Positions 7,074 to 27,305 of a stretch of 27,713 nt of DNA are shown one piece after another. A program made the position numbers and the translations under genes. This stretch comes from a virus, in IMG/VR virus record IMGVR_UViG_3300033993_000823, positions 1 to 27,713 of that record. One strand, 5' to 3'. The notes below the pieces were generated by a model. That model had not been told where the DNA came from and ran no database searches. It worked only from the letters and a program-made list of their open reading frames with translations. Positions within the stretch are counted from its first letter, which is position 1, and each line of letters opens with the position of its first letter.

Positions 7074-7316
7074 TCACCGGACGACCCCCAGCCCGGCGTC
7101 GGCCAGATCGAGGATCGCCCGGCCGACGGCCCGCAGCCGCCCCGGCGGGGCGGGGGCCGGGGCCGGGCCGGGCGGCGGCGTCACGGCCACGGGCATCGCC
7201 GTCTGCCGATGGGCCGCGTCGATGCTCGCGAGTTGGAATCGCGTCTCGATCACGAGGCTCGCGGCCACCGACATCGCGATGATGCCGCACGCGGTGCGGA
7301 CGAGGTCGCGGATCAT
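7074..7316 (-). CDS. Small single-pass membrane protein
   Basis: The 80-residue product has one hydrophobic segment at about residues 4-22 (TACGIIAMSVAASLVI), then a helical stretch and a proline/alanine-rich linker (TPPPGPAPAPAPPG), ending with a short helix. This looks like a small inner-membrane protein with the longer part in the periplasm, or a Rz/spanin-like layout, but nothing specific identifies it. The ATG at 7316 overlaps the previous stop (ATGA), which excludes the longer upstream reading. It is the last gene of the operon begun at 10113. Confidence 0.6.
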   Translation of the reverse strand: MIRDLVRTACGIIAMSVAASLVIETRFQLASIDAAHRQTAMPVAVTPPPGPAPAPAPPGRLRAVGRAILDLADAGLGVVR

Positions 7317-7783
7317 GCCACCACCTCCTGCTGCGTCGGCCACCAGTACGGAAGGTCGGCGGGCTCCTGCCATCCGAACTGGCCGTAGTGCTGAGCATCC
7401 TTGCGGAGCAGGTTGCTCCGGTGCGATGCGTGCAGCCGGTCGTAGCCGAGCCAGTTCGGCGATGACACCCAGCCTGCGCTGGCGTCGAGCAGTCGATCCT
7501 TCGCCGCAATGAACTGCGGCCAGAGCGAGTCAATGAATCCGCGTTGCCGCCACACGACGCACATGATCTCGGCGTACTCCGCGAGCGATTGCTCGTGGCC
7601 TCGCCACATCTTCACCGCCGGGTGGTTCCGCCAGCGCGATGCCCGGTTGCCGCGATGCTCGCCGACATCGACGCCGAGCGCGAGCAGAATCTGCTTGCAC
7701 TCGACTCGCTGTTTGCCGAGCCGCTTGTTGTCGAGGCACCGGGCCGAGGCCCAGATGTTCGGGTAGGGCAAGAATGTCTGCAT
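7313..7783 (-). CDS. Pyrimidine dimer DNA glycosylase-like protein (MSMEG_6728 type)
   Basis: The 156-residue product opens with MQTFLPYPNIWASARCLDNKRLGKQRVE and continues with RWRNHPAVKMWRGHE, ending in LPYWWP. These blocks are characteristic of a family found in bacteria and phages that is annotated as pyrimidine dimer DNA glycosylase or MSMEG_6728-like protein. It may repair UV damage in phage DNA, though enzymatic proof for this subgroup is weaker than for T4 DenV. The start ATG overlaps the stop of the 41-residue gene upstream (TGATG). It sits in an operon of small early genes. Confidence 0.7.
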   Translation of the reverse strand: MQTFLPYPNIWASARCLDNKRLGKQRVECKQILLALGVDVGEHRGNRASRWRNHPAVKMWRGHEQSLAEYAEIMCVVWRQRGFIDSLWPQFIAAKDRLLDASAGWVSSPNWLGYDRLHASHRSNLLRKDAQHYGQFGWQEPADLPYWWPTQQEVVA

Positions 7784-7908
7784 CACTTCGCTCCCTGCTT
7801 GGTGGATCGCTTCGCCTCGGCCTGCTTCGCCCGCTGCTCCCAGCGGCGGCGTAGCCACTCGTGGTATCGCTCCCGCTTCATCCTGCGGCAGTCGCCGTTC
7901 GCGGTCAT
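7783..7908 (-). CDS. Very small basic protein
   Basis: A 41-codon gene beginning MTANGDCRRMKRERYHEW, with many Arg, Lys and Gln residues. It fills the space between its neighbours exactly: the ribosome site AGGG before the ATG overlaps the upstream stop region, and its TGA overlaps the next ATG. The tight packing supports it as real; the function is unknown. Confidence 0.6.
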   Translation of the reverse strand: MTANGDCRRMKRERYHEWLRRRWEQRAKQAEAKRSTKQGAK

Positions 7909-7911
7909 GCG

Positions 7912-8121
7912 TCACCCTATCCTTGCGTATGAGTTGAGCCAATCGACCAGACCGACCTTCGTTTTCGGAACCTCCCTGACGTAGACCTGCTGGCTGTCGC
8001 TGAGCTTGAGTTGCCGCAGCCTCCGCATCGCCTTGTTGAACGTGGTGAACCACTCCTGCGTGATGCCGCTTGGCGTGTCCTCCTCGTGGTAACTGATCAT
8101 GTAGAGCGTGGTGTTGCTCAT
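7912..8121 (-). CDS. Small hypothetical early protein
   Basis: A 69-residue protein with alternating strands and a helix (LYMISYHEE; WFTTFNKAMRRLRQLKL; QQVYVREVPK). The layout resembles a small ferredoxin-like or RRM-like fold, but no family is recognised. The ATG overlaps the preceding stop (ATGA). Confidence 0.65.
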   Translation of the reverse strand: MSNTTLYMISYHEEDTPSGITQEWFTTFNKAMRRLRQLKLSDSQQVYVREVPKTKVGLVDWLNSYARIG

Positions 8122-8300
8122 GTCTTTGCCTCCATACTCTGGTGACGCTTGACCACATCGCGAGCCTCGGCCCGCGTGTTGCATTCCGCGACGAGCCACT
8201 GGTAGCCGGTCGCTTGATTTGCACCCCAGACCTCGTAGATGACTTGACAGAGTCGTCGGTCAAGAAGTTCGACGATGCGGTAGGTGACTTCGTGAGTCAT
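8118..8300 (-). CDS. Small hypothetical early protein
   Basis: A 60-residue protein with beta-beta-helix character (VTYRIVELLDRRLCQVIYEV; TRAEARDVVKRH). It resembles its neighbours at 7912 and 8297 in size and in having strands first and a helix near the end, but sequence similarity is weak. AACGGAGGGGAGCAGAC precedes the ATG, a loose version of the common leader. Confidence 0.65.
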   Translation of the reverse strand: MTHEVTYRIVELLDRRLCQVIYEVWGANQATGYQWLVAECNTRAEARDVVKRHQSMEAKT

Positions 8301-13971: not shown

Positions 13972-14368
13972 CCTCGGCCCCCCAGCGTGGCGGATCGTCA
14001 GGGCATCGCTGGTCGGCCCACGACAACTTGCTCAGCCATTTCCGCTCTCGGGCCACCGGGCATCCGCACAGGCCGCACGCCTTGCCGTCGAAGTGCGGGC
14101 ACGCCGTGCAGATTGCGTGGCGTCTCTGCACTTCGGCCTCGCTCGCCATAGGGGCTCCGGCGGCAACGTGCTGGGCGGCGGCGGCTGCGAAGTTGGCGGC
14201 TTTGCGCAGCAGGGTGACGCCCGGTTTAGGCCGGGGGTACGCCGCGTGCGTCTCGTCTACTGTGATCGTGTCGCCGTCCTCGCTGACGATGCACGCACGC
14301 ACCTCATCAAGCGTGTAACCTCGCTCTAAATAACGTCGCACGAAAAAGTGGCGTGGTCCCGTAATCAT
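13964..14368 (-). CDS. Phage protein with C-terminal zinc finger
   Basis: The 134-residue product has an N-terminal half with strands and a helix (YTLDEVRACIVSEDGDTITV) and a C-terminal cysteine module: ICTACPHFDGKACGLCGCPV, then RCPDDPPRW. CxxC, CxxCxC and CP at this spacing give a zinc-binding finger seen in phage proteins near tail genes. It starts in an ATGA overlap with the Cys-rich gene upstream. A structural or host-contact role is possible. Confidence 0.7.
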   Translation of the reverse strand: MITGPRHFFVRRYLERGYTLDEVRACIVSEDGDTITVDETHAAYPRPKPGVTLLRKAANFAAAAAQHVAAGAPMASEAEVQRRHAICTACPHFDGKACGLCGCPVARERKWLSKLSWADQRCPDDPPRWGAEDA

Positions 14369-21918: not shown

Positions 21919-22725
21919 TCAGAGCGTGTCGGTGCCGCTGACCGTCCCCGCGTCCCGGTACCGCAGAGCGGCCCACGCCTGCTCGATGGTGATCTTGAGT
22001 TCCCGCTCCATGATCGCCGCGATCTCGCCCCGCGTGTCCTCAAACGCCGACCGCAGCGGCGGGCGGCCTTGGCTCCCGCCGGGCGTCACGCCCGCGAGGA
22101 CGATGGGCGTTTTCGACTTGCGAAAAAACGCCCTCGGATAGCCGGGGTCGGTCTCGACGCGGCCATCTCGGCCGATGCTTTTCTTGATCGTGAACGGGCC
22201 GAGCTTGTTGAACGACGAGGCGATGTACGTCTCGGTCTGCTCCTCGACCATGTGCAGGACGCCCTTGCCCTGCACCGTCTCCTGCTGGCCTTTCCGCACG
22301 CGGACGAATGGCTTCGTGGGGCTCTTGCGGGCGTAGACCCGCCGCTTCGGCTTGAAGTTCGTGCGATCCTGCGTGCCTCGCTCCAGCCAATACTGGTGAA
22401 ACGCCCGATCATTCCCGGCCCGCACCGAGCCGCCCGCCGCGCTCGCGGCGGCTCCCCGGCCCGCCCGGCGGTACCCAACGAGGCCGATCGCCACGCCGTC
22501 CTGCTTGTACGTCACGACCTTGCTCGACGCCGCCCGCTTGAGGTTGCCCGTGGGGCCGACCGGGGAAATCTCGCGGAGCCGCCGAACCATCGGCTGGATG
22601 GCCTTACGGATGACCGGGGCCAGCACCTGCGCGGCTTGCTTGTTGGGCAAGAAGTTCCTGATCCGATCCCGCAGCCCGCGGAGTTCGTCCGTGTTGATGT
22701 CGATGCTGATTCCGCCGACGGCCAT
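21919..22725 (-). CDS. HK97 gp10-like tail/head-tail protein, enlarged
   Basis: The 268-residue product begins MAVGGISIDINTDELRGLRDR and contains RLREISPVGPTGNLKRA, a pattern of the HK97 gp10-like family, with a later basic beta region (YARKSPTKPFVRVRKG). A PAFR-like C-terminal segment, PLRSAFEDTRGEIAAIMEREL, also fits. Usual members have about 120-150 residues, so roughly 100 extra residues in the middle (about 100-220) are an insertion. The start ATG overlaps the adaptor stop (TGATG). Confidence 0.75.
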   Translation of the reverse strand: MAVGGISIDINTDELRGLRDRIRNFLPNKQAAQVLAPVIRKAIQPMVRRLREISPVGPTGNLKRAASSKVVTYKQDGVAIGLVGYRRAGRGAAASAAGGSVRAGNDRAFHQYWLERGTQDRTNFKPKRRVYARKSPTKPFVRVRKGQQETVQGKGVLHMVEEQTETYIASSFNKLGPFTIKKSIGRDGRVETDPGYPRAFFRKSKTPIVLAGVTPGGSQGRPPLRSAFEDTRGEIAAIMERELKITIEQAWAALRYRDAGTVSGTDTL

Positions 22726-23042
22726 CAGAGAATCTCTTGGCAAATGAGTTCGTGGATGCTGCGGTTCTCGTGTTCCAGAATCGAGATGATCTCCAGCGTG
22801 CGGCCACGCCACGACAGCCGCATCTGCGCGGACAAGCCGGTCAGGTACCGCATCTTCACCTTGTGGGAAATCTCGACCTGCTGCTGCCCGGCTTGCAGGT
22901 ACTCGCGAGCCGAGACGCCCTGCACGCTCGCCCACACCGTCGCGAACGTGGTGTCGTAGACCATGACGACCTCGTCCATGCGGCTCCGCGACTCGCGGCC
23001 TTGCAGCACCGTGACCCGCTCGCGGAGTTGCCCGGCGTCCAT
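22725..23042 (-). CDS. Head-tail adaptor (head closure) protein
   Basis: The 105-residue product starts MDAGQLRERVTVLQG and shows WASVQGVSAREYLQAGQQQ, then VKMRYLTGLSAQMRLSWRGRTLEIISI. These are the hallmarks of the SPP1 gp16-like phage head-tail joining family. It forms the ring closing the head after packaging. The ATG overlaps the preceding stop (TGATG). Confidence 0.88.
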   Translation of the reverse strand: MDAGQLRERVTVLQGRESRSRMDEVVMVYDTTFATVWASVQGVSAREYLQAGQQQVEISHKVKMRYLTGLSAQMRLSWRGRTLEIISILEHENRSIHELICQEIL

Positions 23043-23443
23043 CAGTCCGTCCCCCACATGATGATCATGTAGGTGCCGGTTCCAGCCCCGGCCGTCAGCA
23101 TCGGCACGGGCTCGCTGTCGGCCATCTGCGTTACGGCGATCTCGCCGTTCGACGAGATGAGCTTCCACGCGTCGTCGCCGCCGTCGTTGAGGGTACGCCG
23201 CGACGATCCCGACCACGCGAACGCCAGCCGCAGCGGAGAGTTCAGAGACACCAGTGATCCCGATGCGTTGCGGTAGTTGCCGAAGTTGATCGACACGCCA
23301 GCCGTCCCCGCCGACCCCGTGACAAAGACAACCTCGCCCGCCGTGTACGGCGTGGCGGAACGAAGCGACAGCACCTTCATCCGAGCCGTTCCGGTACGGT
23401 CGTGAAACAGGCAGTCCACGTTGATGCGGCCGTCGATGCTCAT
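23042..23443 (-). CDS. Structural-module protein, second of two tandem paralogues
   Basis: The 133-residue protein begins MSIDGRINVDCLFHDRTG and contains VLSLRSATPYTAGEVVFVTG. It is clearly related to the upstream protein at 23440-23859: the first ~45 residues align closely and both end in a YxII strand. It also looks like a small beta-sandwich. The family is not known to me. It lies between the connector and the adaptor and may be a minor head or neck protein. Confidence 0.7.
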   Translation of the reverse strand: MSIDGRINVDCLFHDRTGTARMKVLSLRSATPYTAGEVVFVTGSAGTAGVSINFGNYRNASGSLVSLNSPLRLAFAWSGSSRRTLNDGGDDAWKLISSNGEIAVTQMADSEPVPMLTAGAGTGTYMIIMWGTD

Positions 23444-23859
23444 GAGCCAAGCACGATGATGGTGTAGCCCGACACGCCGCTGCGAGACGCAATCGTCGGC
23501 AGGTACTCAGTGCCAGCGTCGAGGTTGAACAGGTTCAGGACGGCGATGTCGCCCTCAAACAAAGTCGTCTCCAGTTGGTTTGCAAGTTCGGCGTCCCAGC
23601 GATAGAACGACAGTTCACCAGACTCTGCTTTAACGACGGCCCGGGTGATCGCAACGAACGACACAAGGTTGCCGTCAGGGTCGCGGTACGATGTCGGCTG
23701 CAACGCAAGCGGCGTCGGGCTTTCGCCAACGGTGCCAGCGAGGATCGCCACCTTGCCCGCCGTGTACTCGTCTGACTGAGCCAGCGACAGGACGTTGATG
23801 CCTGCGTTGGTCTTGTCGTGAAACAAGGCGTCCACGTTGATCCGGCCTTCGATGCTCAC
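23440..23859 (-). CDS. Structural-module protein, first of two tandem paralogues
   Basis: The 139-residue protein begins with GTG (VSIEGRINVDALFHDKTN) and continues VLSLAQSDEYTAGKVAILAGTVG. It shares with the next gene the S-I-[ED]-GRINVD-x-LFHD-[KR]-T start and the YTAG-[KE]-V strand. The start codon overlaps the connector stop (GTGA). Function unknown; position suggests a neck or head-completion role. Confidence 0.7.
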   Translation of the reverse strand: MSIEGRINVDALFHDKTNAGINVLSLAQSDEYTAGKVAILAGTVGESPTPLALQPTSYRDPDGNLVSFVAITRAVVKAESGELSFYRWDAELANQLETTLFEGDIAVLNLFNLDAGTEYLPTIASRSGVSGYTIIVLGS

Positions 23860-24437
23860 GTGTATGACCCCCACGAAACGGTGTCGAGCAGCCGCATCGC
23901 CGCCTCGGGCATCGCCGCGTTGCCACGCTTCTCGTAGAGTTCGTGGACGCACATCAGCATCGCGTTCTTGACCCGCTGCGGCACGCTGGCCGGGTCGCCG
24001 TAGCCCGCCCACCACGTGACCGTGACCGAGTTCTTGTCGATGAGATGGCTCGGCCACGAGCCAGCGTAGGTGTTGCGGATGACGCCCGGCGTCGAGTTCC
24101 GATCCACCCGGTACTCCGACGCCGAGAGCGTGGCGGTGCCGCCAGCCTCGCCCGTCACGAACGTGACGCTCACGGCGGTCGCCGTGCCGACAGCGGCCAT
24201 CGGGGGACGCGGGAGTTCGATCTCGTTGGGGAACGTGTCGAGCGTCATCGTCAGCCGCTGCGTGACGAGCGAGCGGTCGATGTAGTCCTCGACCCACTCA
24301 CGCGATGCCGTGATGTAGCCTTGGATCAGCGAGTCGTCGGCGGTGTGATCGACGCGGCAGTGGGCCTTCGCCTCGGCGAGCGTGATCGGCTCGGTCGCCG
24401 GGGCGTCGATCCTGCGGAGGCTGCGGTAGCGTCTCAC
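23856..24437 (-). CDS. Head-tail connector (gp6-like)
   Basis: The 193-residue product has PITLAEAKAHCRVDHTADDSLIQGYITASREWVEDYIDRSL, the standard opening helices of gp6-like connectors, then a beta domain, and LKNAML-like VKNAMLMCVHELYEKRGNA at the end. These proteins form a ring below the portal. The start is a GTG at 24437 overlapping the previous stop (GTGA), with GGAG upstream; the longer upstream frame is rejected. Confidence 0.88.
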   Translation of the reverse strand: MRRYRSLRRIDAPATEPITLAEAKAHCRVDHTADDSLIQGYITASREWVEDYIDRSLVTQRLTMTLDTFPNEIELPRPPMAAVGTATAVSVTFVTGEAGGTATLSASEYRVDRNSTPGVIRNTYAGSWPSHLIDKNSVTVTWWAGYGDPASVPQRVKNAMLMCVHELYEKRGNAAMPEAAMRLLDTVSWGSYT

Positions 24438-24634
24438 TGGCGTCGTCTCCGTGGCGTGACATCGGCCCGCTCGACCACCGGCTCGACGCTCGCCGTCTCG
24501 ATCAGTCGCTGCTGCGTGTCCCGAACTTCGGTCGCGTAGGCCCACGCGATCAACGACTGTGCCTGCTGCTCAGGCAACTCGACGATCTCGCCGGGCTTGT
24601 AGGAGCCGTGGGCCTTCGCCATCCGTATCTTCAT
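24434..24634 (-). CDS. Small conserved head-module protein
   Basis: The 66-residue protein reads GSYKPGEIVELPEQQAQSLIAWAYA, a pattern common in short proteins between capsid and connector genes of siphoviruses, followed by a basic C-terminus (PRRRRQ). The Y-x-P-G-[ED]-[IV] strand and helix suggest a small SH3-like fold. Role unknown. GGTAGGG precedes the ATG. Confidence 0.7.
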   Translation of the reverse strand: MKIRMAKAHGSYKPGEIVELPEQQAQSLIAWAYATEVRDTQQRLIETASVEPVVERADVTPRRRRQ

Positions 24635-24637
24635 CGC

Positions 24638-25369
24638 TCACCCTACCTTCCATGCAGATTCGGGCGGCTTCCTCGTCTCCTGCCACTCGTTGCAGTATTG
24701 GAACACCGGCTTGCCGAGGTCTTGGCTGGGCCACGTGATGACGTACTCGCCGTGGCCGATGGGCACCCGTGGCGTGACGTAGAGCCGGTTGCCGCTGGCC
24801 TTGAACTGCCTCCAGAACGCGATGTCGGAATCGGTTCTGCCGTCGCCCCAACTGCCGGCCGGGTCGGGCTGCTCGTGAAACCACGGCTTCTTCATGCGCC
24901 GCAGAGCGGCGGTCGAGATGATCGTGCAGCCGAAGTGGGCGGTGTCCACCTGCTGCACGGGATGGCTAAACCACTCGCCCGGCACTCGCGTCACGCCGTC
25001 CTCGGGCGGGTTGTCGAGCGTGTCGAGCAGCGTGAGCATCGGCCTGCCGTCCTCCCGCTTGGTCTGGAGCGGGGCGAGAGCATCGCACTGGAACGTCATC
25101 GCGAGGGCGAACAGATGCTCGATGTTCTCCTTCGACACGAACGAATCCATGTCGAGCGTGATGATGTACTCCGTGGTCGGCTCAAACTTCTCCATCATCC
25201 GCGTCAGGACTTGGCTCCAGAACGCACCCTGCCCGAGCGTCGGGCGGATGTGCAGCGGCATCATCGCCTCGATGAACCCGAAGACGTTGATGAGCGGGCC
25301 GAATCGCGGGCCTGACAGCACGGCCTCGCAGCGGATGTCCACCGAAGAATCGCCGACCTTGACCAGCAT
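24638..25369 (-). CDS. GT-A-type glycosyltransferase in the head module
   Basis: The 243-residue product has the layout of a GT-A glycosyltransferase: an N-terminal domain, the metal-binding DMD (D73, D75) in YIITLDMDSFVSKENIEHLF, an acceptor-side FGCTIISTAALRRM segment (about 146-159) and a late DSDIAFWRQFKASG with a conserved histidine (GHGEY). It should transfer a sugar from an activated donor. Nothing shows the acceptor: capsid, tail, host surface and DNA are all possible. The start is the ATG at 25369; an upstream in-frame TTG would begin inside the terminator hairpin. It is the first gene after that terminator. Confidence 0.75.
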   Translation of the reverse strand: MLVKVGDSSVDIRCEAVLSGPRFGPLINVFGFIEAMMPLHIRPTLGQGAFWSQVLTRMMEKFEPTTEYIITLDMDSFVSKENIEHLFALAMTFQCDALAPLQTKREDGRPMLTLLDTLDNPPEDGVTRVPGEWFSHPVQQVDTAHFGCTIISTAALRRMKKPWFHEQPDPAGSWGDGRTDSDIAFWRQFKASGNRLYVTPRVPIGHGEYVITWPSQDLGKPVFQYCNEWQETRKPPESAWKVG

Positions 25370-25383
25370 GGGTTTGCTTTCCA

Positions 25384-25427
25384 GAAAAAGAGAAACGGCG
25401 GGGGAGGCCAACGCCTTCCCCGCCGTT
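25384..25427 (-). terminator. Strong intrinsic terminator after the capsid genes
   Basis: AACGGCGGGG (25394-25403) pairs with 25418-25427, extended inward by a G-T pair and AGGC/GCCT to a 15-bp stem. On the transcript it is followed by UCUCUUUUUC. It separates capsid and decoration genes from the glycosyltransferase and the rest of the operon. Confidence 0.85.
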
Positions 25428-25451
25428 CATCGTGCTGGCCTTGTCAAGCGA

Positions 25452-25901
25452 TCAGCCGACGGCCTGCGTGTTGACGCCCTTGTCGGTGGCACTCATCGGC
25501 CCGGCCTCGCCCTTGCCGAGACGGCAGGTCGTGACGACGCCGCAGGTCGAGGCGGGGGTGGCGTAGACCGTCAGGTACCGCCGCTTGCCACGGAGGTCGA
25601 TGTCGAAGCGGTGGGCATAGCCCACGCCCGCCGTCGCCGTGACACCGGCCGCGACCGTGAAGTCGGTGCCAGCGACGAACCCGCTGATGTCCGCCTGCCC
25701 GCTGCCGCTCGCGTCGCTCTGCGCGACCCGCAGCACCCGAGCCGCCGTGGTCGGCCCGGTGGCCGAAGTAAACGGCGAGAACAGAACGTCGATGGACGCG
25801 AAGCTGAAGCCGAGGGTGTCGATCTCCAGCGAGTGGGTCGCGGTCAGGGCCACCGACGTTTCGGCCTTGCTGACGCTCTTGGAAGCAGCGACGAAGTTCA
25901 T
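25452..25901 (-). CDS. Probable capsid decoration protein
   Basis: The 149-residue product follows the capsid gene. It is beta-rich and low in charged residues, with Ala/Thr/Val strands (FVAGTDFTVAAGVTATAGVGYAH) and RYLTVYATPASTCGVV. No motif defines it, but the place, size and composition fit a head decoration protein. AGGAG precedes the ATG by nine bases. Confidence 0.6.
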   Translation of the reverse strand: MNFVAASKSVSKAETSVALTATHSLEIDTLGFSFASIDVLFSPFTSATGPTTAARVLRVAQSDASGSGQADISGFVAGTDFTVAAGVTATAGVGYAHRFDIDLRGKRRYLTVYATPASTCGVVTTCRLGKGEAGPMSATDKGVNTQAVG

Positions 25902-25934: not shown

Positions 25935-27305
25935 TCAGCCGAACTTGAGGGCCACAACAGGACCGGCCTTGGTCGTGCTGCCGATGTCGTTCACGATCAT
26001 CGCGTTCCGCGTGGTCGCGAAGGTGAGCGTCTGGTCGAACTCGATGTACCGCTCGCTGGCGGTCTTGATCGAGATGGCCCGCCGCTCGCCGAAGATCGCG
26101 GCCTGCGACAGATCGCCGAACATGGCCGCCACCGCGCCGGTCGTGCCGGTGAGGCGGGACTCCATCGGCTGCACCAGCGTGACAGGGTAGCCGAGGAACG
26201 TCTCGCCGAAACCGGCGGCGACGTTGTCGGTGCTGTTCCCGCCCGCGTTGGACGAGCCACCGGGCAGCATGGCGAGCCGCAGCATCGCGGCACCCCAGCC
26301 AGCCGGGGAGATGTACCACCGGGCGTTCCGGTTGCGGGCGTACAGCGGGAGCCGGGCGAGAAGGTCGGTGAAGTTCTTCATCGTCAGGTCGCCGAAGGTC
26401 GTGTTGCTCGTGGCAGTCACGACGCTCGCCGAATAGGCCGACTGAAGAATCTTCGTGCAGATGCCGGTCGTGCCGTGGTAGGCCAGCGTGCCGTCACCGA
26501 TGAAGCCCGCGTTGTCGAACGCCTCGCTGAACGCCTGCGCCGTCTCGACGGCCATGGCATCGGCGAGGTCGATCACCGAGTCCTCCAGCAGCGAGTTCGG
26601 GGTGCGGTTCGCCACGCCCCAAATCTTCGCGTTGAGTTCGACGTTGTCGAACGTGACATCGCTCTGCGTGACCTCGACGTTCTCGCCGACCGGGCGGGCC
26701 GTGAGGCCGCCGGTGCGACGGGCGTAGACGAGCGTGTCGGAGTTCATGTTGACCCGCTTGGCCTGCTGCGGGAACACGCCAAACTCCTCGACCAGCCGGA
26801 TGATCTCCGTGCTGAGTTCGGGGCTGGTGAGGACACCGCCGAGAGTGTTGATGCCACCGGCCTGAGCCCGGCTCTCGACACCGTGATCGTTGCACCACCG
26901 ACGGGCCTCGGCATCGCCGAACACGTAGCCCTTGATGTGCATCCCGGCCCGGTAGGCCCGCTCGGACGCATCGGGGCCGCTGAACGCCTTGAGGGGGCCG
27001 TGCGACTTCGGCACGGCGTAGTGACGCTTCTCCACGGTCGTCTCCTTCGTCTCGGTGGCCTCGATCACCTTGGCGGGAGCCGAACGCTCCAGCACGGCAC
27101 GCAGTTCGACTTCCTTCGCCTGCACCCGCTGCAAGAACTCGATCCGCTCGCGGAGCTTGTCGGCCCGCTGCTCCAGCGACCGCAGCGAGGCTTCCTGCTC
27201 CTCGGACATCGGGGCGTCGTCGCCCTCGGGGGCACCTTCGGTCATCGTCTCCATCTCGGCGACGACAGCGGCGAGTTCGTCGAGCAGTGCCTTGATCTTG
27301 TCCAC
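25935..27305 (-). CDS. Major capsid protein (HK97 fold)
   Basis: The 456-residue product has the two-part plan of HK97-family capsid proteins. An N-terminal coiled-coil delta domain (about residues 1-75, with LRSLEQRADKLRERIEFLQR) is removed by a protease in HK97 itself. A linker (about 75-105) precedes the shell domain: GGVLTSPELSTEIIRL, ARRTGGLTARPVGENVEVTQ, NRTPNSLLEDS and FLGYPVTLVQPM. No lysine-asparagine crosslink can be asserted. The start is a GTG with AGGAG upstream. Confidence 0.93.
   Translation of the reverse strand: MDKIKALLDELAAVVAEMETMTEGAPEGDDAPMSEEQEASLRSLEQRADKLRERIEFLQRVQAKEVELRAVLERSAPAKVIEATETKETTVEKRHYAVPKSHGPLKAFSGPDASERAYRAGMHIKGYVFGDAEARRWCNDHGVESRAQAGGINTLGGVLTSPELSTEIIRLVEEFGVFPQQAKRVNMNSDTLVYARRTGGLTARPVGENVEVTQSDVTFDNVELNAKIWGVANRTPNSLLEDSVIDLADAMAVETAQAFSEAFDNAGFIGDGTLAYHGTTGICTKILQSAYSASVVTATSNTTFGDLTMKNFTDLLARLPLYARNRNARWYISPAGWGAAMLRLAMLPGGSSNAGGNSTDNVAAGFGETFLGYPVTLVQPMESRLTGTTGAVAAMFGDLSQAAIFGERRAISIKTASERYIEFDQTLTFATTRNAMIVNDIGSTTKAGPVVALKFG

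Follow-up and report, generated by a model that had tools for sequence, protein, structure and literature searches.

Among tailed phages, glycosylated virions have been described chiefly in a small number of mycobacteriophages. In Corndog (cluster O), glycosyltransferases (GTs) and an O-methyltransferase are encoded within the structural operon, as described in the accessible part of the cluster O paper (PMC4351075), and the available text of a 2025 structural annotation describes Corndog gp38 and Che8 gp110 as essential for capsid glycosylation (PMC12363180). The cluster J mycobacteriophages Wanda, Omega, LittleE, and Thibault carry a block of GT and methyltransferase genes between capsid and connector; in Wanda, the order is major capsid protein (MCP), GT, kinase, methyltransferase, GT, and connector. 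According to the accessible sections of the cluster J paper, this block is a variable insertion of 8–10 genes, whose roles the authors call unknown, and LittleE gp17 is a fusion of a methyltransferase and a GT (PMC3706429). Part of an mBio article (PMC12691614) was also among the sources of prior knowledge. Two further genomes, annotated from sequence, have a GT in the corresponding slot of another virion type: MW202711.1 (MCP, small gene, GT, tail tubular A) and Microcystis phage Mel-JY34 (MCP, GT). The archaeal virus STIV, which belongs to a different virus realm from the phage considered here and has a double jelly-roll capsid, encodes the GT-A enzyme A197 (PDB 2C0N). The STIV review, in the portion available, reports that the coat protein is glycosylated and that A197 is essential (PMC10551542).

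The DNA analyzed here, referred to as the window, is a linear and partial IMG/VR virus record of 27,713 bp. Its minus strand carries, in this order, the genes for the MCP, a 149-amino acid protein, a GT, a 66-amino acid protein, and a gp6-type connector. The MCP (25935..27305) is of the HK97 type (PF05065 Phage_capsid, E 9e-34; phrog_10, E 2.5e-41). The GT gene (24638..25369, minus strand, 243 amino acids) is a complete ORF starting with ATG at 25369 and ending with TGA at 24638. An earlier in-frame TTG start at 25411 was rejected, because it would take in the hairpin described below and relatives align from the ATG. The initial annotation had placed this gene between decoration and connector genes of the same direction. 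Its place and the connector (23856..24437, minus strand; PF05135, E 1.8e-14; phrog_442, E 7.5e-27) were confirmed, whereas the term decoration protein for the 149-amino acid product (25452..25901, minus strand) is a guess from position, the sole match being phrog_5707 of unknown function. The ATG of the 66-amino acid gene (24434..24634, minus strand) follows the GT stop codon after 3 nt, and the gene seems to extend 4 nt into the start of the connector gene; the likely connector start, inferred from the sequence, is the GTG at 24437, while the listed ORF extends to 24545. This short gap and the apparent overlap couple the GT to the connector side.

Behind the connector lie two tandem paralogous genes (23042–23443 and 23440–23865, 34% identical), the relatives of which belong to the most variable part of the block (median identity 40%–45%) and are each present in only 39 of 80 loci. 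They are followed by a small gene (22707..23045, minus strand), presumably encoding the head-closure protein, which anchors the conserved gene order and is present in 68 of 80 loci. Elsewhere in the window, a protein with a pyrimidine-dimer DNA glycosylase domain (7313–8263; Pyr_excise, E 7.8e-20) is likely involved in DNA repair, and a tRNA-Ala call (14166–14243) inside an open frame of the opposite strand is probably spurious.

The spacer in front of the GT gene carries an intrinsic-terminator hairpin (25393..25428, minus strand; U-tract at approximately 25385–25395). From 25428 to 25393, it forms an 11+4 bp hairpin, followed by UUUCUCUUUUU, and the 82-nt spacer reaches −36.6 kcal/mol (z −3.3), in agreement with the earlier statement that the GT follows directly on a terminator. 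A simple terminator scan did not detect this hairpin. Among distinct spacers of relatives that were at least 25 nt long and had a capsid or 149-amino acid gene within 400 nt, 140 of 183 contained a hairpin and a T-run together, compared with 14 of 150 mononucleotide-shuffled sequences. The combination was found in 106 of 146 spacers behind the 149-amino acid gene and in 34 of 37 behind the capsid gene. Ten of the 16 spacers displayed had the hairpin; the stem sequences varied, but the pairing was kept. The terminator between the capsid-side genes and the GT is therefore real.

Profile databases matched the GT at most weakly. Pfam Glycos_transf_2 (PF00535) gave E 0.26 and 11.7 bits, below the curated cut-off of 23.3, and in 4 of 23 relatives a match with E 0.072 at best; NCBIfam contained no match to the window GT. 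In PHROG, the window GT matched phrog_1574 of unknown function (E 0.0046). This family also matches a methanogen-virus protein (L418:4543-5139, E 1.4e-21) and a planctomycete GT (L144:1453-2082, E 4.9e-21) and looks like a GT-A family lacking a label, the match of the window GT itself being weak. Structure prediction with AlphaFold2 from 20 close relatives reached a pLDDT of 36, whereas a 79-row alignment of diverse relatives yielded a confident model (mean pLDDT 91.4, pTM 0.89). The top PDB match of this model was STIV A197, both with Foldseek (E 1.2e-8) and by VIA (Z 17.4, 176 residues aligned, rmsd 2.7 Å), and the best PDB rows were GT-A enzymes with Z from 17.4 to 12. After A197, the matches included the collagen-modifying enzymes LH3 and COLGALT1 and Mimivirus R699; the aligned range of LH3 (approximately 288–545 of the chain) may, as we assume, not be its main catalytic domain. 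A197 was also the sole match when the 79-sequence profile was compared with the PDB (E 0.027 over 51 positions).

That alignment sets an ED of A197 opposite D182 of the window GT. The catalytic base of A197 is Asp151 according to the available part of a review on archaeal structures (PMC4187194), and the aligned chain position agrees with it, provided that the numbering has no offset. D182 is hence a candidate for the catalytic base, the DMD motif at residues 73–75 (D73-M-D75) represents the DxD motif, and H206 lies toward the C-terminus. The residues P21, D75, G147, P162, W163, D182, G205, and H206 are invariant in the 79 sequences, and D73 is conserved in at least 90%. Together with the complete ORF, the model confirms the initial annotation of a complete GT-A-like enzyme with DMD: in this model, the window protein has a GT-A fold, and its DxD motif and catalytic Asp are conserved. 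With an identity of about 14%, A197 may be a remote relative in sequence; its substrates, too, are putative.

Among the phage systems, the enzyme of MW202711 matches the GT profile with an hhalign E of 3e-11, whereas the match of the Mel-JY34 enzyme is weak (E 2e-4), as is the sequence relation to the cluster J enzyme (hhalign E 2e-4, probability 46%). Wanda resembles the window in that the first gene past the capsid is annotated as a glycosyltransferase. However, the cluster J block is a variable multi-gene insertion, while the lineage of the window has one gene that is fixed across a large lineage. Corndog and Che8 (cluster F) are comparable by their descriptions, that is, virion glycosylation and, in Corndog as here, a GT inside the structural operon; in contrast to the single gene of the window, Corndog has several genes (gp35–gp38), which lie between portal and protease.

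The conservation of the slot was analyzed in IMG/VR, where at most the best 80 loci per scan were examined, so that the counts refer to examined loci and not to the whole collection. A search with the window GT found at least 599 relatives; in the best 80 loci, the 66-amino acid gene lies behind the GT in all 80 and the connector in 78. As this set was ascertained on the GT, loci chosen by their capsid served as the non-circular test. Among 80 loci found with the capsid, a GT is present in all 77 with room for it, 539–585 nt after the capsid; the remaining three contigs end 84, 469, and 517 nt past the capsid. With the capsid of a second lineage, which lacks the 149-amino acid gene, 80 loci were examined, and all 70 that have room carry a GT. 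With an outgroup capsid, 79 loci were examined; a GT is present in 46 of the 49 with room, in 45 cases as part of a long fused frame. Of the three outgroup negatives, L527 breaks off within its second capsid gene, and the absence is genuine in L550 and L553. Pooling 276 distinct GT sequences (identical sequences, minus-strand hits, and the loci L082, L280, and L341–L343 were left out), a capsid is found upstream in 150 of 154 cases with room, a connector downstream in 183 of 194, and both flanks in 89 of 98. Eleven rows deviate: nine are fused frames of great length, and two are stand-alone enzymes that are only distantly related. The GT is retained where capsids share only about 35% identity. 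It is also kept in the 33 of 176 loci in which the 149-amino acid gene is unrecognizable, the GT domain there starting 83–147 nt past the end of the capsid frame. The GT belongs to the obligate core genes of a large group of uncultivated phages, and within the core lineage its slot is always the same. In one locus (L056:46-66), a TAG at GT codon 8 interrupts an otherwise open frame, which may reflect a sequencing error, a later start, or decay.

In deep relatives, the GT forms the C-terminal part of a fusion protein, resembling LittleE gp17. The fusion partner is Methyltransf_23/11 in L336, and in the 662-amino acid protein of L337 (4882-6870), a Methyltransf_11 domain and a possible FkbM-like middle part precede the GT domain. 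In L338, the partner is an FkbM methyltransferase, and the gene lies behind a different capsid family and in front of an SU10-type adaptor. Several outgroup contigs have two capsid-like genes (L336:800-4862, L348:753-4872, and L527), with what we take to be a head-protease gene between them in L336 and L527. Distant GT homologs also occur outside head modules, among the replication genes of HTVC027P and near the baseplate genes of S-CAM9, which argues against a universal link to the virion.

Comparison of substitution rates in 400 pairs gave a median dN/dS of 0.13 for the GT, 0.25 for the capsid, 0.26 for the connector, 0.27 for the 149-amino acid protein, and 0.30 for the 66-amino acid protein; the pairs come from loci up to L222, many of them found with the GT, and since the median dS is near saturation and unequal (1.06 for the GT, 0.68 for the capsid), the twofold difference in dN/dS is approximate. 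The GT is thus the most constrained of the five proteins by this measure and is under strong purifying selection. Across 176 loci, its median identity is 56% compared with 42% for the capsid, and GT identity lies above capsid identity in 70% of 15,400 pairwise comparisons. The broader statement that the GT is more conserved than everything else was discarded: it applies to loci chosen by the GT, whereas capsid-chosen relatives include values of 61% for the GT and 76% for the capsid. In the 176 loci, GT distances track those of the connector (r 0.875) better than those of the capsid (r 0.735).

The contigs carrying the GT are environmental and come from many samples. Neither the GT (E 0.01) nor the capsid (E 1e-5) had a match in 50,697 phage records, and the GT had none in plasmids. 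A pattern scan of 84,980 species genomes found a sole relative, on a contig of a Planctomycetota MAG. G422, with a contig of 14,043 bp and the gene order capsid, GT, connector, was the one addition from a profile search in 396 genomes of that order. The Planctomycetota profile searches gave 2 of 294, 2 of 396, and 1 of 397 genomes, with G017 in each; the further matches were one cellular GT (L144) and the G422 contig. No relative adjoining clearly cellular genes was found in these searches. The binning of two related contigs into MAGs gives a hint of a Planctomycetota host. The tRNA-Ala at 14166 was rejected as a host marker: of 196 genomes from a single order, 9 matched it, with matches that were short and partial. 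Antibody evasion, which had been proposed as one role of the modification, has no support in a virus that infects bacteria of aquatic habitats, given the environmental origin of the contigs and the Planctomycetota as the sole host hint.

We consider it probable (roughly 0.6) that the protein is a soluble, metal-dependent GT-A enzyme, acting late, which puts a host-derived sugar on a new virion protein, most likely the MCP or a head or neck protein. The modification of a virion protein is suggested by the gene's slot, the constrained active site, the lack of a membrane segment, and the fusions to sugar-methyltransferase-like domains. The GT would be expressed late, as the first gene past the terminator behind the capsid genes, and because of this terminator it would be made at a lower level than the capsid. 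In the cytosol, it would transfer sugar from a host nucleotide-sugar to a virion protein, the likeliest acceptor being the MCP or a head or neck protein of the same downstream operon. The two variable paralogues behind the connector might be exposed on the neck or head and could serve as acceptors. In the deep relatives, the fused methyltransferase would probably methylate the added sugar. The sugar might protect the virion from traps on the host surface, from proteases, or from attaching wrongly. We infer here an active enzyme and a virion protein as acceptor, and likewise the donor sugar and the benefit; gene position by itself does not identify the substrate. The earlier suggestion of a modified virion protein thus gained support from the fixed slot, the late operon, the conserved catalytic site, the methyltransferase fusions, and the A197 fold, and still goes beyond direct observation. 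Its proposed acceptor, a capsid or tail protein, could be narrowed a little: the 149-amino acid protein is ruled out as the only acceptor, since 33 of 176 loci lack its gene and keep the GT.

The obligate core status of the GT, which the initial annotation had missed, makes it likely that the enzyme acts at the stage of morphogenesis. It is improbable, though, that head morphogenesis in a dominant lineage includes glycosylation as an obligatory step, with the GT marking completed heads, or the neck proteins joining them, once the capsid is assembled and before the tail is attached, and with its evolution tied to the connector and not to the capsid. The loci L550 and L553 indicate that the head type does not need the GT as such; if assembly did strictly require it, this could apply to particular lineages only. 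With its capsid, 149-amino acid homolog, and connector but no GT, L550 (4422-6964) offers a natural comparison for the effect of the GT.

Glycosylation of a virion protein has to be weighed against other targets. Altering the host surface glycan late in infection, by which released virions would avoid debris or the cell would exclude other phages, would be in line with the frequent occurrence of host-glycan GTs in temperate phages (see also the accessible part of a 2025 jumbo-phage paper, PMC12619734), and lipid-linked precursors in the cytosol would be within reach of a soluble GT. This explanation is unlikely, as the protein lacks a transmembrane segment (max KD19 1.3), neither a flippase nor an anchor partner was recognized next to its gene, and the gene is locked between head genes instead of lying in a conversion module. 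Furthermore, host-directed GTs are expected to vary with the host glycan, in contrast to the most constrained of five proteins. A serotype-conversion (gtr) GT in particular was rejected: besides the lack of a membrane segment, no gtrA/gtrB partners were recognized beside it and the neighbors are head genes.

The protein-glycosylating enzymes LH3, COLGALT1, and Mimivirus R699 among the top structural matches after A197 would also suit an enzyme that inactivates or retunes a host or defence protein. The late place in the head operon behind the capsid terminator and the fusion of relatives to sugar-type methyltransferases make this distinctly unlikely. Moreover, counter-defence genes usually turn over fast, whereas the GT is fixed. 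Phage GTs reportedly hypermodify DNA; for the window GT, a DNA base or nucleotide as the target is very unlikely, because T4 DNA GTs have another fold (GT-B) and no base-hypermodification gene was recognized among the scanned window proteins, the latter being a weak point in a partial record. A catalytically dead scaffold helping to join head and neck would account for the fixed place before the connector and for the distances tracking it, but is highly improbable given that the residues invariant across the 79 diverse sequences include catalytic ones and that the sister contig L550 has these head genes without the GT.

A fixed GT in the head module of an uncultivated or Planctomycetota phage lineage was not found described in the titles and abstract openings examined from the open-licence literature. 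What is new here is that one GT gene belongs to the core head genes in a large uncultivated lineage and is constrained more than the capsid. This lineage probably glycosylates a protein of its own particle as a routine step. If the GT does glycosylate the virion, capsid glycosylation would be old and routine among environmental phages instead of a late addition, and the fixed one-gene system would be a simple model for asking what role the sugars on phage capsids play.
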